Origin: Nitrospirota bacterium
Lineage (GTDB): Bacteria; Nitrospirota; Thermodesulfovibrionia; Thermodesulfovibrionales; JdFR-88
NCBI GenBank assembly: GCA_021813405.1
Contig: JAKAKS010000056.1
Coordinates: 1-44,335 of the forward strand
DNA length: 44,335 nucleotides
Direction of reading: 5' to 3'
The notes below the pieces were generated by a model. It made no database searches and had not been told where the DNA came from. It was given only the letters and a program-made list of their open reading frames with translations. A program made the position numbers and the translations under genes. This document shows positions 4,428 to 19,231 of this stretch, one piece after another; positions within the stretch are counted from its first letter, which is position 1; each line of letters begins with the position of its first letter.

Positions 4428-7160
4428 ATGCTTGTCTTGCACGTGCCTGCCGGACGCAGGGGAATAACAAAACACCTTCTTGCCAGGGCGCTGCCTGCCC
4501 TTGGGACAACGGGGAAAGACTTCTCAAGCCTGTATTACATCTCGCCTTCGGCTGCCAAGTGCCGGGATGCGCTTGGGGACTTCCACCAATTCATAGGCAT
4601 TAATAGCTATATACCAATCACCAGCACTACGCTCCCGCAACTGGCAAAAAGGCTCTGTCTTGCCGCAGGCGTGCCAATGCTGCCATCGCACCTGATCGTT
4701 CCCATGCTTTCTGCCATCTCCGGAGAGGGGATTGGCCGCTCAGCCCTGATTGCCGGTTTCATTTCCGGAATGAAGCTCCGGTTCCCTCTGAAAACCGGCG
4801 GTGAGATATGGACGGAGCTAGAAAAAATTATTTATGAAACCGGTGTGCCTGAAGAGATTTCAGGTCGGATCAAAGATACGCTGGAACTTATGTCCGTTTA
4901 CGACCGGGCGCTTGCCTCAAAGGGCCTTATGGACCGGGACAGCGCCTTGCCATCTGCGGTTTCATTTGCGGGGCAGCTAAATATAAGGGCGCTTGTGATA
5001 GAAGGCTTTCATACGGTGAATCCCGCCCATCAGATATTACTGCGGGCGCTGATTGAAAAGGCAAACGCCGTTTATGCAGCCCTGCCGATGGCGGGCCAGG
5101 AGATTACCGGGGGGTATCTGGAATTTCTGAGGTCTTTCTCCCCGGAAGAGGAAATCCTGCCTGGGGATGAACCCGATTCGTCCAGCCCATCCGCACTTGC
5201 GAAATGGCCGCCGGATTATTCCACGTTCCCTTCAAGAGAGGAAGAGGCCGAAGGGGCGGCACGGAGGATAAAACACCTTTATCTCTCCGGCAGGATAAGG
5301 GACCTCTCCAAAATAGTCCTTGCGCTGCCCGCGGGCAGTTCTCCCGATACCTTTGGCCGGGTGCTGGAAAAGTACGGGATTAAATATTCATCCCCATCCG
5401 GCGCGTCTGCGGCCCGGCGCATAAATGAGATTTCAAGCCTGCTGGAAGCGCCCGGCCAGCAGTACCCGGCGGCAAAATTGTCTGCCTTTCTGAACTCGCC
5501 TCTGTTTTCAAAGGTACCGGAAGACGTGCGATCCTGGGCCCCCAAAATCACATTATCCGGGGTTTCAGCCGGGCTTGATAATCTTGCCGGGCTGGAAGGC
5601 GCGCCTGCGGAAGAGGTAAAAAAATTATCCAGGAAACTCCGCCCGCTGGAGTTTCAGACCGCCGGTGGCAAAGACCGCGCTTCTTCGTTAAAGGCATTCC
5701 TGGCTGCTCTGTCAGCAATGGGGTTTTCCTCCGCTTCTGCCGCTCCGGATAAACCGGAAACCCAGAACGAGGCCGGGGCATTTGCAGAAGAGGCCGAAGC
5801 AAGGCTGCGGGACCTGTTTATGCTTGATGTCCTTCTGCCGGACAATGTTTCCGGTAAAACGGAATCTGCGGATTTGCACGCGGCCGCGCGGTTTGTGCTT
5901 TCTTCGATAGATACAGGCCAGGAAGGGGAGGGTGTACGGATAATGCCCCTTGAGGACGCCTTCGCACTGGAACCGGAATGCCTCATCCTCCCGGGGCTGC
6001 GTGACGGGCAGGCCCCTGCAAGGCCCCAGCCGGACCTGATATTGCCGGAAATGCTCAAAGAGAAGATAGGGCTTAAAACATGCAGGCAGCAGCTTGCCGA
6101 GGAGGAGTTCCTGATTAGAAGACTGGTGCTTTCCTCGGCGGAAGCGTACCTGTCCTACCCGGAGATGGAGGCGGAAAAACTGTTCCTGCCAAGCATCATT
6201 ATATCGGAAGGTAAAAAAATAGATGGCGGCGTTGCCGGGGTCTTTTCGGAGGAGGAAAGGCTTGTGCGCAAAGGAGGGTATGCAGGCGCGCCATATTGCC
6301 AATCCGTTGGGGAAATCAGCATTCCGTTTAAAAGCAAACATGGCTTAAGAGTGACCGACATAGATTCTTTCAGGGCATGTCCGAGGCTGTTTTATCTGGA
6401 AAAAATATTCCGGCTCAGTCCGCCGGAGCTGGCCGGGCCCGGGCCGGACCCCAGGGCAACGGGCACGCTCCTGCACCGGCTGATGGAAAAGCTTCTGCCA
6501 ATATCTATATCGGAAGACCTGGCGGCCTTAACAGAGCGGGCAAAATCAATTATAGAAAAAACATTCCCGGAGTTCCGGCTGGACCGGTACTGGCGCGGGC
6601 TGCTCAGCGACACCTTCCTGGATGCCATCCCTGCAATTTACGAAAACGAGGCCGTGTTCAGGGAGGACGGGTTCGACTTCATGGGGCCGGAGATAGAGAT
6701 AAGGGGCAGCCTTGCCGGATTGCCGCTGCGGGGCAAGGCAGACAGGCTGGACGCAAGATGGGGGGCGCTTGGGCATGGGAAAACCGTGCAGGTGCTGGAC
6801 TACAAAACCGGCTCTCTGGCATTCTCGCCTTCCGATGTCTTTAAAAAAGGCGCATATCTTCAGTTGTTTCTCTATGCGGCGCTGCTGGAACGTGGGAACC
6901 CGGAACTGAAGGTGGAAAGGGTTGGCATTTATTCGTTAAAGGATTTGAAGGTGAAATTTGCTCCGGCCAAAAAAGACGCCAAGCAGAACAGAGCCATGCC
7001 GGACTATATAGACGCAGCCCTTGGCTTTCTGGCTGAAACCGCCGCGCTGCTGGAGGCAGGGGATTTTAGGGCCAGGCCGATTGACGAGGCCAAGTGCAGG
7101 CACTGCCACGAAAGGCCTTATTGCCCATATATACATCCGTCGGAAGCGGCGTGCGGGTAG
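4428..7160 (+). CDS. addB: AddB-type PD-(D/E)XK nuclease with iron-sulfur cluster
   Basis: A 910-residue protein resembling the AddB/RexB partner of the AddAB double-strand-break resection complex. The N-terminal helicase-like half is degenerate: the expected Walker A is only PAGRRGITKHLL, lacking a GK[T/S], so ATP hydrolysis by this subunit is unlikely. The C-terminal quarter is a RecB-family nuclease domain: a Cys in FRACPRLFYLEKIF, GTLLHRLMEKLL (the catalytic His), the core LDYKTGSL near residue 790, and the Cx2Cx5C stretch CRHCHERPYC near 890-899. The lone Cys plus this triad are the four ligands of the [4Fe-4S] cluster known in AddB. There is no ribosome binding site and the promoter may give a leaderless message. 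The helicase partner is the next gene, 863 bases downstream. The symbol reflects family and context; identity with classical AddB is not proven. Confidence 0.8.
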   Translation: MLVLHVPAGRRGITKHLLARALPALGTTGKDFSSLYYISPSAAKCRDALGDFHQFIGINSYIPITSTTLPQLAKRLCLAAGVPMLPSHLIVPMLSAISGEGIGRSALIAGFISGMKLRFPLKTGGEIWTELEKIIYETGVPEEISGRIKDTLELMSVYDRALASKGLMDRDSALPSAVSFAGQLNIRALVIEGFHTVNPAHQILLRALIEKANAVYAALPMAGQEITGGYLEFLRSFSPEEEILPGDEPDSSSPSALAKWPPDYSTFPSREEEAEGAARRIKHLYLSGRIRDLSKIVLALPAGSSPDTFGRVLEKYGIKYSSPSGASAARRINEISSLLEAPGQQYPAAKLSAFLNSPLFSKVPEDVRSWAPKITLSGVSAGLDNLAGLEGAPAEEVKKLSRKLRPLEFQTAGGKDRASSLKAFLAALSAMGFSSASAAPDKPETQNEAGAFAEEAEARLRDLFMLDVLLPDNVSGKTESADLHAAARFVLSSIDTGQEGEGVRIMPLEDAFALEPECLILPGLRDGQAPARPQPDLILPEMLKEKIGLKTCRQQLAEEEFLIRRLVLSSAEAYLSYPEMEAEKLFLPSIIISEGKKIDGGVAGVFSEEERLVRKGGYAGAPYCQSVGEISIPFKSKHGLRVTDIDSFRACPRLFYLEKIFRLSPPELAGPGPDPRATGTLLHRLMEKLLPISISEDLAALTERAKSIIEKTFPEFRLDRYWRGLLSDTFLDAIPAIYENEAVFREDGFDFMGPEIEIRGSLAGLPLRGKADRLDARWGALGHGKTVQVLDYKTGSLAFSPSDVFKKGAYLQLFLYAALLERGNPELKVERVGIYSLKDLKVKFAPAKKDAKQNRAMPDYIDAALGFLAETAALLEAGDFRARPIDEAKCRHCHERPYCPYIHPSEAACG

Positions 7161-7212
7161 TATGTCCTTTTCGATGTCCGCTCCATTCCGTGATTTGCCT
7201 TTTCTTTTTATA

Positions 7213-7370
7213 TGTTCCAGCCATTTCTGGGTTTTCTTTTAAATCCGGTAGCTTAGGGCTAAAAATCTTGTTCCGTTTGTTCCATGTGTTCCATTTTTTA
7301 GCCTCCGCAAGTATTTGATTTTAAAGGATTTGCTTTTATAGTGAAATACGAATGCAATATAGATGGAACA
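7213..7370. repeat. Cluster of TGTTCC repeats
   Basis: TGTTCC occurs at 7213-7218 and then three times with exact 9-base spacing (7269-7274, 7278-7283, 7287-7292), and once inverted as GGAACA (7365-7370). The regular spacing looks like a short tandem repeat or a binding-site array. No function is known. Confidence 0.35.
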
Positions 7371-7512
7371 GCCCAACTGCCTGTTTTTTCAGCTTTTTTT
7401 GCAAATCTTTGCCTTTAAATTTTCCTTGTCTTTTTGGGTCCTTCCCCACTGATTTTCAAAGAGCTATGAGGGCTGTTGCCCCTCCAGACAGCGCCAATAT
7501 ATCACGGCCTGG

Positions 7513-7556
7513 CATGACATTGTCCATATGACATATGTCATAAAGTTGGTGTCATG
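7513..7556. promoter_or_regulatory. Nested palindrome, probable operator
   Basis: TATGACATATGTCATA (7527-7542) is a perfect 16-bp palindrome. CATGACA (7513-7519) and TGTCATG (7550-7556) flank it at equal distance, so both pairs share the centre 7534.5. The result is four TGACA half-sites arranged TGACA-N9-TGACA-N2-TGTCA-N9-TGTCA. The inner core also fits the ACAnnTGT pattern of BlaI/CopY-type operators, but no such regulator gene is visible. The site probably binds a dimer of dimers controlling an unidentified transcript. Confidence 0.5.
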
Positions 7557-8023
7557 GTTGTGGGATGGCATTTCAGATGTGTTTGGTATAACTGAAATCC
7601 CTCACCTCAATATCTCTTTGGCAAGATGCGGGATAATTTTTTTCGTATAGACAAAACCAGGGCGCATTGTCATTTCCCGCCCAGGCCGGAGCCGTGTGGG
7701 GCAAGGTGCCATATTATCAGCCTCTGAGGTTTCAGACAACGTCTCAGGCATTCACATGCCTGTGTGTTTATCAAAGCCGCTGGCTTCCCGCTTATTGCCA
7801 GATATCAGGCGTAGTACCGCACCATCGCGAGGAACGAGAGACAGGCACTCGGGAATGCGCCTAAGGCAGCGATGGCCATAATCAACTATTTTCAGAATGC
7901 CAAAGCCCCTCATATCCGTGAGCATATATGGCTGGAAGAGCCGGGCCGCATTTCCAGTATAATAAACCCGGGGCGTGGTTTAAATTGTGCATGTATTGCG
8001 GATGAACCGGATTTGAAAATCAT

Positions 8024-11008
8024 ATGAACTACCTGGACACGGGCAAAAGCTTTATCATCTCTTCCCCTGCGGGGTCGGGCAAAACGGAAAAGCTGGCCAG
8101 GCGGTATGTCAGCCTGCTTGCTTCCGGCTCCGACGTGGAAAGGATAGTTGCGATCACCTTCACGGAAAAGGCCTCCTCCGAGATGAAGCAGAGGATACTT
8201 AGAATGCTGGCGGCCGAATTCCCGGAGATATACGCCAGGATAAGGCCCAAGGTGCCGGTGATGAGGATATCCACCATCCATTCCTTCTGCCTTGGCCTTT
8301 TAAAGAGGTTCTCAATGGAATTGGGGGTTGACCCGGACGTAAGCGTAACGGACGAGGCCGGGGCCTCCGCCCTCTGGCGCGAGGCGGTTTCCGAGGCGCT
8401 CCGGCAGGAGGCCAGGGATGAGATATGCGGCCCGTCCTCCCTTTCCAGGCTGATGCGCAAGCGCGGCATCAGGGGCTGGGACGGGTTCCTGGGCCAGCTG
8501 GAAGAGGTGTATAAATTAAGGCCGCTCTCCGAGATGGCGCTTTCGGAAAATCCGGATTTCCGCACCAGCGGTGAAAGCGATGATGATGAGCTTGCCGCGG
8601 CCTTCTCCAGGTGCCTGGATATTTACAAGGCCAAAAAGAAGGCCGCCAGGGTGATAGACTTTTCCGATATAGAGATACTTGCATGGCAGGCCATAGCAAA
8701 AAGCCCGCACTGGCTTAATATACTGTACTGCTTTGATGAGCACACGGACCATATACTGGTGGACGAGTTCCAGGACACAAGCACCCTGCAATGGCGCATT
8801 ATAGACAAGCTTACGGAGGAATGGCGCTCCGGGCAGGGGCCAAAGCGCGAGGCGGGCAAGGTGCCCACGATATTCCTTGTGGGCGACGACAAACAGTCCA
8901 TTTACCTGTTCAGGGGGGCCGATGTCTCCGTTATGAAAAAGGCAAGGCAGCGGCTGTCGGGCTTTCTGGGCCAGGAGTACGAGTTTCATGCCGTCAAGGA
9001 CAATTACCGCAGCCTGCCGGGCATTGTGGATTTTACCAACGCTCTCTTTGAGAAGCTGATGCCGCCGTCACTATTTACCGGGCAGGCAGACGATACAGTT
9101 ATAACGCAGGAGTATGAAAACGGCCTGGTGGATTACTGCCCGTTTGAGGCCAGGCGCGAAGGCGACGGAAAGATAGAACTGCTTCTTATACCGGAGCCGG
9201 AAAATATTGAGAATAATGAGCACGGCCAGGACGAAACCCCGGCCTCAAAAAACCAGGCCCGCTGGAAAACCAAGGACAGGCGCGCGGAAGAGGCCCGGCT
9301 GCTTGCGGCCCGCATAAATGCGCTGAATAACAGGTACCAGGTGCACGAGCCTGGCGGCACAAAAAGGCCCTGCCGGTTCTCCGATATGGCAATACTTCTT
9401 AAGCAGAGGACGCATCTTGCCTCGTTTGAAGAGGCGTTGAGAAATGCCTCGGTCCCGTTTCTGGTTATGAAGGGCATGGGTTTTTATGAGGAGCCGGAGA
9501 TTGCCCTTTTAAGGGAATTTGTGTGCTTCCTTGCGGACCCGCAGGACAATTACGGGCTGTTCTGCCTTTTGCGTTCCCCGCTTTTGGGATTCAGTTACAG
9601 GCAGATTGCAGGGCTGTTTGGGAAAGACAAGCCGCTTCTGGAGGCGCTTAAGGAAAACGGCGGCAAAAGGAAGAAAGACGCGGAGGCGCACGCGCTGCTT
9701 GCAGGCTGCCTGGAGCTTAAGCCCGCCATTCCGGTTGCAAGAATAATAGAGAGGCTGCTTGTGCAATCCGAAGGCTGGCAGCATCTGTGGGAGCCGCAAA
9801 GGCGGGCTAACGTAAGGAAGTTCATTTCCATAGTGGAGGGGCTTGAAGCCGAGGGGATGGGCCCGGTTGCAATAAGGGACAAGCTTATCGGCGAGAGGTT
9901 CAAAAACGAGGTGGCCAAGGCAAACGTAAACGCGGAGGGCATGAACGCGGTGAAGCTGATGACCGTGCACGCGGCCAAAGGGCTTCAGTTCCCGATGGTG
10001 TTTTTGCCGTGCCTGGAAGAGGACCCTTCCGCAAAGACAAGGGCCGTGGTTATCGAGGAACGGGCGGGCAAATTCAGCTTCCGCTATGAGCCTTCAAGCA
10101 CAGACAGGAAGGAAGTGCCTGAATTCCAGAGGACCAGGCAGAAGGAGCTTGAGGAGGAAAAACGGCTCTTCTATGTTGCCATAACGCGCGCGATGGACTA
10201 CCTGTTCATGAGCGGATTCGACGGCGGGAAACCAAAAGGGAGGCTTGCGTACCTGTACAAGGCGTTTGGTGGCAGGACTGGGCCTGACGGCCTTGGCGGC
10301 AGGCGATGCGGGGCGAACGGGAAAGAACTCTTTGAAGTGCTGGACCCGGCAGACGGCGCGCTGTTTGAGACACGCGCCATACCGGGGGCCGCCCGCGGAA
10401 AGGCGCCGGATGACAGGTTTATGAGGGAGTTTACCTATACCGGCCCGCTTGAGTACGCGCCAGCCCTCTCGGAAAGCGATGTGACAGAAGACATATTGGT
10501 AAAGACCCGCCACGGCAAAGACTGGGTGCAGATAGGAAGGCTGATGCACCAGATACTGGAGGACATCTCAAAGGGTGTTCTTATTCAAAACGGCGTGGCC
10601 GGGCTTGAAAAGCGCCTTGATACGCTGCTGCCGCTTTTCGCGCCGGAGCCGGAGAGGGCGGCGCGGTTCCGGGCTGTGGTACTGGAGGACATCCAGAAAC
10701 TGCGTGAGACCGGGTTCATGGAATCCGTGATTCTGCCCAGGCAAGGCTCTTTTGCGGAGCTTCCGTTCATGCACGAGAGGGGCAAAACCCTGTACAAAGG
10801 CCGGATAGACCGCCTCGTAATCTCCGGGGCGGAGGCGCTTATCTACGACTACAAGAGCTTCCCGGCCAGGCCGCAGGAGATACCGGAGCTGGTGGAAAAA
10901 TACCGGTTCCAGATGGAGCTTTACAAGAAGGCGGCCGCAGACATATTTGCAGTGCCCGCCAGGGCCTTCCTGCTTTTTACCCATCTGCCCCAATGCCTGG
11001 AGCTGTAA
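8024..11008 (+). CDS. addA: AddA-type UvrD-family helicase with C-terminal nuclease
   Basis: A 994-residue superfamily 1A helicase. Motif I SPAGSGKT is at 14-21, Ia is AITFTEKASSEM, then STIHSFC, motif II VDEFQDTS near 246, motif III GDDKQSIYLFRGA, motif IV NYRS, motif V LMTVHAAKGLQF, and motif VI VAITRAMDYL near 718. The C-terminal RecB-type nuclease has GRLMHQILED and the catalytic IYDYKS near 940. This is the AddA/RecB organisation, so with AddB it should unwind and trim double-strand ends for RecA-dependent repair. At 994 residues it is shorter than the 1,150-1,230 typical of AddA. The start ATG 8024 has no Shine-Dalgarno sequence, but a stop codon lies four codons upstream in frame with no alternative start. 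An ABC permease gene begins 22 bases after its stop, perhaps on the same transcript. Confidence 0.85.
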   Translation: MNYLDTGKSFIISSPAGSGKTEKLARRYVSLLASGSDVERIVAITFTEKASSEMKQRILRMLAAEFPEIYARIRPKVPVMRISTIHSFCLGLLKRFSMELGVDPDVSVTDEAGASALWREAVSEALRQEARDEICGPSSLSRLMRKRGIRGWDGFLGQLEEVYKLRPLSEMALSENPDFRTSGESDDDELAAAFSRCLDIYKAKKKAARVIDFSDIEILAWQAIAKSPHWLNILYCFDEHTDHILVDEFQDTSTLQWRIIDKLTEEWRSGQGPKREAGKVPTIFLVGDDKQSIYLFRGADVSVMKKARQRLSGFLGQEYEFHAVKDNYRSLPGIVDFTNALFEKLMPPSLFTGQADDTVITQEYENGLVDYCPFEARREGDGKIELLLIPEPENIENNEHGQDETPASKNQARWKTKDRRAEEARLLAARINALNNRYQVHEPGGTKRPCRFSDMAILLKQRTHLASFEEALRNASVPFLVMKGMGFYEEPEIALLREFVCFLADPQDNYGLFCLLRSPLLGFSYRQIAGLFGKDKPLLEALKENGGKRKKDAEAHALLAGCLELKPAIPVARIIERLLVQSEGWQHLWEPQRRANVRKFISIVEGLEAEGMGPVAIRDKLIGERFKNEVAKANVNAEGMNAVKLMTVHAAKGLQFPMVFLPCLEEDPSAKTRAVVIEERAGKFSFRYEPSSTDRKEVPEFQRTRQKELEEEKRLFYVAITRAMDYLFMSGFDGGKPKGRLAYLYKAFGGRTGPDGLGGRRCGANGKELFEVLDPADGALFETRAIPGAARGKAPDDRFMREFTYTGPLEYAPALSESDVTEDILVKTRHGKDWVQIGRLMHQILEDISKGVLIQNGVAGLEKRLDTLLPLFAPEPERAARFRAVVLEDIQKLRETGFMESVILPRQGSFAELPFMHERGKTLYKGRIDRLVISGAEALIYDYKSFPARPQEIPELVEKYRFQMELYKKAAADIFAVPARAFLLFTHLPQCLEL

Positions 11009-18181: not shown

Positions 18182-18729
18182 TTGCCCTGTATCATCACCT
18201 TGCTGTCAGTTACGCTGGTGCGGTCGTCCGACACGTAATAGACTATTTTGGTCCCGGTTATCACCGTATCACCTTCGGCCACCCTGGGGTTTGTGCTGAA
18301 CACTATTTTGTCATCGGCCTTGGTGTAATCGGCCTTGCCGGCAGTGATTACGCGCCCCTCTTTTATAACGCGCACAGCGCCGGTGGCTACGATGCGCTCC
18401 ACGCCGCCCTGGTCCCCATACATAACAACCATCCTGTCGGCAAATATCTCCATATTTTCCGTTTTGGCCTTTACGTTGCCGGAAAATATTGCCGTGTGGG
18501 CCTTGGAATCCGCGGAAAGGCTTTTGGCCGTTATGATTACCGGGCCTTTTTCTCCTAGCGTGGCTGCGGGCGAATTTGTGACCGCGGCCCCGGTCTGTAC
18601 CCCGGCGGATGTTTTGCCGGCGGCGGCGTTCCCCTGTGCGGCAAGAGAAAGTCCGGAGCAAAAAAACAGCGGCATGGCGGCCGCTGCGGCGGCTGCAAAA
18701 GTTCTAATAAAAAATGGCTTTGACGTCAT
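18178..18729 (-). CDS. lptA: Periplasmic lipopolysaccharide-bridge protein LptA
   Basis: A 183-residue protein with a signal peptide (FFIRTFAAAAAAAMPLFFCS, cleavage near LSLAAQ). The OstA/LptA domain follows, with GPVIITAKSLSADSKAHTAIFSGNV, the NMEIFADRMVVMYG repeat, and GRVITAGKADYTKADDKIVF. LptA forms the beta-jellyroll bridge carrying lipopolysaccharide from LptC to LptD across the periplasm. Its start overlaps the end of lptC by 26 bases. Confidence 0.93.
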   Translation of the reverse strand: MTSKPFFIRTFAAAAAAAMPLFFCSGLSLAAQGNAAAGKTSAGVQTGAAVTNSPAATLGEKGPVIITAKSLSADSKAHTAIFSGNVKAKTENMEIFADRMVVMYGDQGGVERIVATGAVRVIKEGRVITAGKADYTKADDKIVFSTNPRVAEGDTVITGTKIVYYVSDDRTSVTDSKVMIQGK

Positions 18730-19231
18730 TTTTCAGTTTCACCGTCCTCTGGGTATTGGCCTCAAGGCTTTTGCCGGTTATGGACATGCCGCGTTTTTTA
18801 ACTTGCACATCCTGGCCGGGCGCTGAGCTTACATCCTGGCCGGGCACTATCCTTACAGTCCCCGTGCTTACGTCAAAACCCTTCACCTGGCTTTTTACAT
18901 TGCCCGAAAGCTCCATTATGTTTGTCTGCATGTCCAGGCTGCCTGTATCGGCCCTCATTGCAATATTTTCTGACGGCACGTTTATGGTCACGGAATCCAT
19001 GGCGGCCGAAAGCCCGTCGGCGGAAAGACTGGCTTCTCTGGAGACCGCCCGCCATAGTGTCTTTGTGTCCATGATATTCAGCACCGTCACGTTTTCAAAC
19101 GATGAGGAGCCGGGAGCGGCCATTTTGGCCTGGGCCGCTCTCATACCGTTCATCGGGAAATAATATATCCCGCACAAGGCAGCCAGCGCCGCGGCGATTA
19201 CAGCCTTGGTGCAGAAGGCATAGCGCGTCAT
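18704..19231 (-). CDS. lptC: Lipopolysaccharide export protein LptC
   Basis: A 175-residue protein with one N-terminal membrane anchor (about 8-24) and a periplasmic jellyroll rich in beta-strands (SLDMQTNIMELSGNVKSQVK). LptC takes lipopolysaccharide from LptBFG and hands it to LptA. Near the C-terminus the motif PGQDV occurs twice (VPGQDVSSAPGQDV), a small in-frame duplication at about 18825-18850. The start overlaps the aroE stop by 4 bases. Family identification rests on size, topology and placement before lptA, as LptC sequences diverge strongly. Confidence 0.85.
   Translation of the reverse strand: MTRYAFCTKAVIAAALAALCGIYYFPMNGMRAAQAKMAAPGSSSFENVTVLNIMDTKTLWRAVSREASLSADGLSAAMDSVTINVPSENIAMRADTGSLDMQTNIMELSGNVKSQVKGFDVSTGTVRIVPGQDVSSAPGQDVQVKKRGMSITGKSLEANTQRTVKLKNDVKAIFY

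Follow-up and report, generated by a model that had tools for sequence, protein, structure and literature searches.

A four-half-site palindrome marks a dispersed element family in Nitrospirota that probably derives from an autoregulated helix-turn-helix unit

Several described bacterial systems place short sequences at many sites of one genome. REPINs, as presented in the parts of PMC3116915 that define them, consist of two inverted REPs that form a hairpin and are associated with a Y1 transposase. MITEs with internal promoters, among them the Correia elements, are outlined in the corresponding passages of PMC10969869 as intergenic, gene-less derivatives of 50-500 bp that carry sigma-70-like promoters. 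For Geobacter metallireducens, the section of PMC2700814 on predicted global-regulator sites reports dozens of intergenic copies of short motifs, some of them four-fold, and proposes binding by chromosomal proteins. Whether gene-less copies do anything is a question that interspersed repeats pose in bacteria at large. Here, we describe a repeat family tied to one candidate DNA-binding protein and not to a recognisable transposase; our literature searches brought up no description of such an element in Nitrospirota.

The starting point was a nested palindrome in the window, i.e., the whole 44,335-nucleotide stretch of DNA that was analysed. It lies in an 863-bp gap (7161-8023) between two open reading frames (4428-7160 and 8024-11008), which, judging from their sequences, may encode AddB and AddA-like proteins. 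The original prediction described four TGACA half-sites in an order unlikely to arise by chance, and this description is accurate. CATGACA (7513-7519) and TGTCATG (7550-7556) enclose TATGACATATGTCATA (7527-7542) about a common centre at 7534/7535, and the half-sites are positioned at 7515, 7529, 7536, and 7550. The claimed 14-bp spacing applies within each arm, and the inner pair of half-sites starts 7 bp apart. The candidate operator (7513-7556, minus strand) is accordingly a 44-bp arrangement of two 14-bp direct repeats inverted about the centre, with polar linkers inside that read TTGTCCA on the left and AAGTTGG on the right of the plus strand. Allowing up to three mismatches, the pattern TGACAN9TGACANNTGTCAN9TGTCA has a single occurrence in the window, whereas 100 shuffles gave no match, and a genome-wide search at the same tolerance yielded 43 occurrences in the own genome (G000) and 34 in its congener (G001), the only two of 61 genomes with the pattern. 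Across the whole genome, 39 occurrences of the core TGACANNTGTCA contrast with zero for its reversed control. Shuffles, reversed control, and recurrence together rule out a chance palindrome.

Similarity among the copies extends well beyond the palindrome. A blastn comparison of the gap with the own genome (2,906,763 bases in 56 contigs, genus g1) returned 57 matching pieces, and the alignment to the fullest other copy (77% identity, gap positions 38-471) delimits a whole element of about 434 bp on the minus strand (7198-7631). From 52 own-genome loci plus the window, 47 copies with a scoring 44-bp site were obtained, 46 of which were aligned (alignment A3). All four half-sites are exact in 22 of these 46 well-scoring copies and the core in 32; the minus-strand consensus reads CATGACATnAACTTCATGACATATGTCATATGGACAATGTCATG, a few variable bases, and GCCGTGTTATnATGGC. 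Each unit runs from an operator-promoter through a variable stretch to a 3' module with XGAACA boxes. In the window's copy, a region upstream of the operator (7557-7631, strand unassigned) is common to a subset of copies. A -35-like hexamer, TGGACA (7521-7526, minus strand), lies inside the operator and is conserved in A3, and a -10-like hexamer, TATATT (7496-7501, minus strand), lies 19 bp from it and corresponds to the consensus TATGAT in A3 and a second genus alignment, A4. The leader that comes next (7453-7495, minus strand) comprises a small GC-rich repeat and GCTCTTTGAAAA and is common to many gene-less copies of genus g1; its length varies between copies, and GCTCTTTGAAAA is frequent. 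A 3' module of type A completes the element (7198-7293, minus strand), with GGAACA boxes at 7287-7292, 7278-7283, and 7269-7274 and a further box at 7213-7218, followed by TATAAAAAGAAAAGG. Relative to the downstream open reading frame, 18 copies are co-directional, 27 opposed, and one undecided (n = 46, p 0.23). Dozens of copies alike over up to several hundred bases, with no preference for pointing at a gene, rule out an isolated regulatory site of the flanking genes. The overlooked transcript suggested earlier for the gap is plausible, given a -35/-10 pair on the minus strand with the operator over the -35.

Some copies carry a gene between operator and module, encoding a helix-turn-helix (HTH) protein of 140-180 amino acids. 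The own genome contains two gene-bearing copies (C47:12481-12993 and, by a protein match at 18429-18758, C3) and a third, partial HTH gene with a GAACA box behind it (G000:C10:85481-85750). The end of the HTH reading frame runs into the boxes, which it translates as MEQMEQKI or IEQIEQ. Homologs are present in 9 of the 61 genomes of the order (E 0.01) and, in a sample of 395 genomes from across the phylum, in 10 (E 1e-5). Most HTH genes of G001, G002, G006, G011, G039, and G057 are preceded by a similar promoter-operator and followed by GAACA boxes; exceptions are a weak match in G008, a fragmentary one in G003, and several G039 copies with a different upstream region. In G057 and a part of the G039 copies (L097, L107), the HTH gene has AACTATAGTT or similar palindromes upstream, possibly a second operator.

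For HTH_23, the score of the HTH protein falls slightly short of the Pfam cut-off, and the protein gives weak matches to resolvase, sigma-4, and terminase-small-subunit HTH domains in Pfam and PHROGs. The predicted fold places two long helices behind an HTH (mean pLDDT 64.7), and Foldseek returned no match below 0.001 for it among PDB and viral models; in a comparison by sequence profile, 37 positions match a PDB chain with the name 'CAP REPEAT' (2.3e-10). Neither Pfam/PHROGs profiles nor the predicted fold revealed a nuclease or catalytic domain. Phage small terminases and resolvases share the same general HTH type with helices behind it (PHROGs, Pfam, Foldseek; weak matches), but a phage origin was rejected, as the protein has no relative in phages, plasmids, or viral contigs. 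Given that other copies carry a candidate HTH gene immediately after the same operator, the dimer-of-dimers regulator of the original prediction remains the best reading of the four half-sites; what did not stand is a single site particular to this locus, which proved to be one of dozens of element copies.

The gene-less copies of sister genera retain traces of this gene. With an element of G002 as query, matches appeared in all ten other genomes of the family, some of them reflecting a tRNA at the query edge; element matches proper occur in seven genomes of genera g2 and g6 (G002, G006-G011), and G003 holds a gene fragment. In 31 of 32 g2/g6 regions, a promoter block is followed by a module, mostly with GGAAAGGAG or a close variant in between, which is the ribosome-binding site of the HTH gene. 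Two copies (L195, L186) keep the gene start and one (L175) part of the C-terminal coding sequence; L204 has no promoter block, but a gene relic is present. Between promoter and module of the genus g1 copies, no gene relic was recognised. Gene-less copies thus appear to derive by internal loss from a gene-bearing element, as the relics show for g2/g6 and as the shared architecture suggests for g1. In G057, a member of another family, an HTH locus and nine gene-less loci have nearly the same operator, TGTGACACATTTTnnCTGACACGTGTCATATGGACAATGTCA, whose 44-bp register agrees with that of the window site; a pattern search placed modules in six of the nine (L254, L255, L257, L258, L260, and L252, the last counted under the overlapping locus L246).

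We surveyed the 61 genomes of the order with two models of operator and promoter, R1 from the 46 own-genome copies, using their sequence only, and R2 from 31 g2/g6 copies. R1 matched at least 81 times in G000 (every candidate scored, and a few are counted on both strands), 71 times in G001, and 12, 11, and 8 times in G057, G006, and G007; G002 and G011 gave five matches each, G039 three, G009 two, and G008, G018, and G025 one each. R1 matches are absent from 49 of the 61 genomes, and most of the 59 non-congener genomes have few or none. R2 matches number 26 in G006, 24 in G001, 20 in G000, 15 in G007, 14 in G011, 9 each in G002 and G009, 5 in G010, 3 in G008, and 1 each in G027 and G039. Calling sites present at three or more matches in either model, gene and sites co-occur in 8 genomes and are both missing from 49, with the gene only in G003 and sites only in G007, G009, and G010 (Fisher p 4.8e-7, for related genomes and uncorrected for kinship). 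The gene in G003 is a fragment, and no sites were found there; in G007, G009, and G010, metagenome-assembled genomes that are 94, 84, and 82% complete, no HTH gene was found despite many gene-less copies.

We consider it probable (about 0.66) that the palindrome serves as operator and promoter in a miniature dispersed element whose parent is an autoregulated one-gene HTH unit, with the HTH protein as the candidate dimer-of-dimers binder. The parent unit would consist of the operator-promoter, one gene for a small HTH protein, and, at the 3' end, a module with three XGAACA boxes; in most copies, that of the window included, the gene would have been lost and both ends kept. The HTH protein most likely occupies the four half-sites as two dimers, and it is most likely a repressor, acting on its own promoter and, in trans, on that of every gene-less copy. 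Gene-less copies would then be co-regulated transcription units and, at the same time, a large reservoir of binding sites whose titrating effect would tie the amount of free regulator to copy number. Going further, and only tentatively, since we hold it to be somewhat less than an even bet, the family may represent a previously undescribed regulator-borne element: an HTH unit that seeds the genome with dozens of gene-less operator-promoter and module copies, kept by selection at fixed loci, in effect a self-copied noncoding regulon with co-varying boxes read by a partner and with no transposase of its own.

Conservation was examined in the congener. At the window's own locus, the left-side gene and the element are together in G001 (L136), where the site (L136:1486-1529) differs at 5 of 44 positions within an aligned stretch that is 91% identical. 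Conservation in close relatives, whose absence would have counted against the original prediction, is therefore found; the same architecture is seen again in further genera and in a second family. The downstream gene resides on another G001 contig (L127), which starts with a different element copy (L127:28-71). Either the gene order has been interrupted at the element in one of the two species, or the assembly is responsible; in G001, both sides of the synteny break carry an element copy. The nearest named relatives of the downstream gene come from uncultured Nitrospirae MAGs, and the closest, 97% identical over the protein, is encoded on contig JAJYLE010000179. A site is located at the start of this 4602-base contig, and the same site is found on G001 contig C121.

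For the family as a whole, 28 orthologous G000/G001 pairs were aligned first, and 19 unpaired own loci were searched by flank pieces, of which 12 were found: two with whole copies, one with a retained but degraded copy, one truncated at a contig end, and eight with the element replaced, missing, or cut by a contig end. With one further orthologous pair (L141/L209), the set comprises 31 pairs. Operators differ at 60 of 1363 positions (4.4%) versus 542 of 5327 in flanking windows, the rate is lower in the site than in its flanks in 26 of 29 usable pairs, and operator changes fall mostly in the linkers. We set site divergence aside as proof of selection: the 4.4% alone proves little because most pairs were chosen by the site in both genomes, and neutral sites accepted in simulation diverge by 5.0%. 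In a neutral simulation at 10.2% divergence, 6.6 of 32 sites on average stay within three mismatches, with a maximum of 16 in 20,000 runs, versus 27 observed, these G001 pairs having been found by the three-mismatch criterion itself. GAACA boxes, defined in the own genome only, changed at 8 of 295 positions (2.7%) versus 298 of 3595 around them (8.3%). Operators and boxes are kept at orthologous loci well beyond neutral expectation, a conclusion that places its weight on the number of retained sites and on the boxes. This constraint argues that the gene-less copies do something.

The same constraint is unexpected for dead mobile DNA and weighs against the strongest rival, namely that the copies are selfish, MITE-like, non-autonomous repeats moved in trans by some recombinase, with the HTH protein as a mere end-binding partner and with operator and boxes as the needed ends. 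We regard this account as a serious possibility, if somewhat short of even odds. It would fit dozens of copies placed irrespective of gene orientation, several copies of one congener that are replaced or absent in the other, the seven or more HTH matches in G039, some of them broken, and boxes that change together within each element. However, neither terminal inverted repeats nor target duplications were found, and the HTH protein lacks a catalytic domain by profile or fold. At six loci that differ between the congeners, none shows a clean empty site; homology breaks near gene ends, content is replaced, and a duplication is unreadable. At one orthologous intergenic place, G000 carries a type A element (L014) and G001 a type B element (L220) in the same orientation, the latter without a four-half-site operator. 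Another dispersed repeat of about 280 bp (L130:263-545 and L046:949-1232, 80% alike) is present in a G001 locus and absent from the orthologous L059 of G000.

The 3' module raises a different possibility. It opens with XGAACA boxes, two or three in number and set at intervals of 9 or 10 bp, and closes about 50 bp further on with one more XGAACA, behind which come an A-rich stretch and GG. The base X is either G (type A, including the window) or T (type B) in genus g1, with 41 G-G, 42 T-T, and no mixed modules. Of 121 distinct modules, 120 have the same X in the last box as in the second counted one, versus 63.6 expected from column composition; these modules are related, such that a p-value would not refer to independent events, and include one G057 pattern match that resembles coding sequence. 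A separate C-type module occurs in the distant genome G057, and together with the G-type of g1 this indicates that all boxes changed together more than once. Such concerted change within each element points to a second recognition partner. One rival, which we think unlikely but worth weighing, is a multicopy small-RNA family, in which a regulated promoter yields a short RNA with the XGAACA boxes as its active motif and the HTH protein as its transcription factor. The conserved -35/-10 and boxes without a preference for driving a downstream gene, the low divergence of the boxes, and the shared X in nearly all modules all favor it. Against it, conserved structure with covariation, a hallmark of such RNAs, was found neither in modules nor in leaders: 30 g2/g6 module copies yield no consensus fold, a candidate AAAAATC/GATTTTT stem shows no covariation (368 of 500 shuffles reach its score), and leaders of g1 and g2/g6 fold no better than shuffled sequence (mean z -0.25, 45 leaders). 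No terminator was seen after the module. Rfam gave no real match at the window element, two chance matches appearing at lax thresholds, and none at the element in 20 of the 52 own-genome loci. These loci contain just two riboswitches elsewhere, cobalamin (L009:2071-2270, minus strand) and c-di-GMP-I (L019:1232-1308, minus strand). In four G057 modules (L254, L257, L258, L097), longer stems with reversed A/T sides are conceivable by eye, a possible hint of RNA structure. As no conserved RNA fold was found, the module may act as DNA or as unstructured RNA.

The direction of control by the HTH protein bears on the promoter itself. The -35/-10 spacer measures 19 bp in both genus alignments, A3 and A4, a length that suits sigma-70 poorly and could call for an activator. 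That the HTH protein activates rather than represses nevertheless strikes us as improbable: the -35 lies under the operator, whose fourth half-site falls in the spacer, an arrangement that usually blocks polymerase, and the profile matches of the protein include no MerR-type domain. Repression is the simplest reading because the operator covers the -35 and the last half-site lies between -35 and -10. Chromosome-organising systems such as ParB-parS and MatP-matS also use dispersed sites, and dozens of conserved sites per genome with a dedicated candidate binding protein would suit a nucleoid-associated or segregation factor, but such systems need neither a promoter nor a second module at each site, which leaves this role very improbable.

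Set against the described systems, the element built on an HTH unit, as we prefer to read it, shares features with each. The Geobacter metallireducens sites concern other motifs in another genome, and the passages of PMC2700814 devoted to them describe no gene-bearing element copy. With REPIN/RAYT, as portrayed in the relevant parts of PMC3116915, it has in common short extragenic palindromic repeats in many copies, linked to a single-copy gene beside the same palindrome and following that gene across genomes; here, gene-less operators likewise match the operator of the HTH copy in g1, g2/g6, and G057. It differs in that its two ends are unlike and a promoter lies inside. In place of the Y1 HUH tyrosine transposase, the gene encodes an HTH protein without nuclease, comprising HTH and helices only (Pfam, PHROGs, fold), and in place of a hairpin of two inverted REPs, the operator is palindromic and the opposite end consists of a module of direct GAACA repeats without a conserved stem in g2/g6. 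With MITEs and Correia elements, as sketched in PMC10969869, it shares intergenic, gene-less derivatives of a gene-bearing unit and a sigma-70-like promoter, internal loss being indicated by relics and a ribosome-binding site in g2/g6 and by architecture alone in g1. Unlike them, it has no terminal inverted repeats (by inspection, the left and right conserved blocks are unlike) or transposase that we could find, and its promoter is overlaid by a dedicated operator and constrained at orthologous loci; the six differing loci, none with a clean empty site, showed no readable target duplication. The element resembles REPIN/RAYT and MITE systems while falling outside the definition of either, and it makes the spread and upkeep of such repeats testable with one protein and one 44-bp site.
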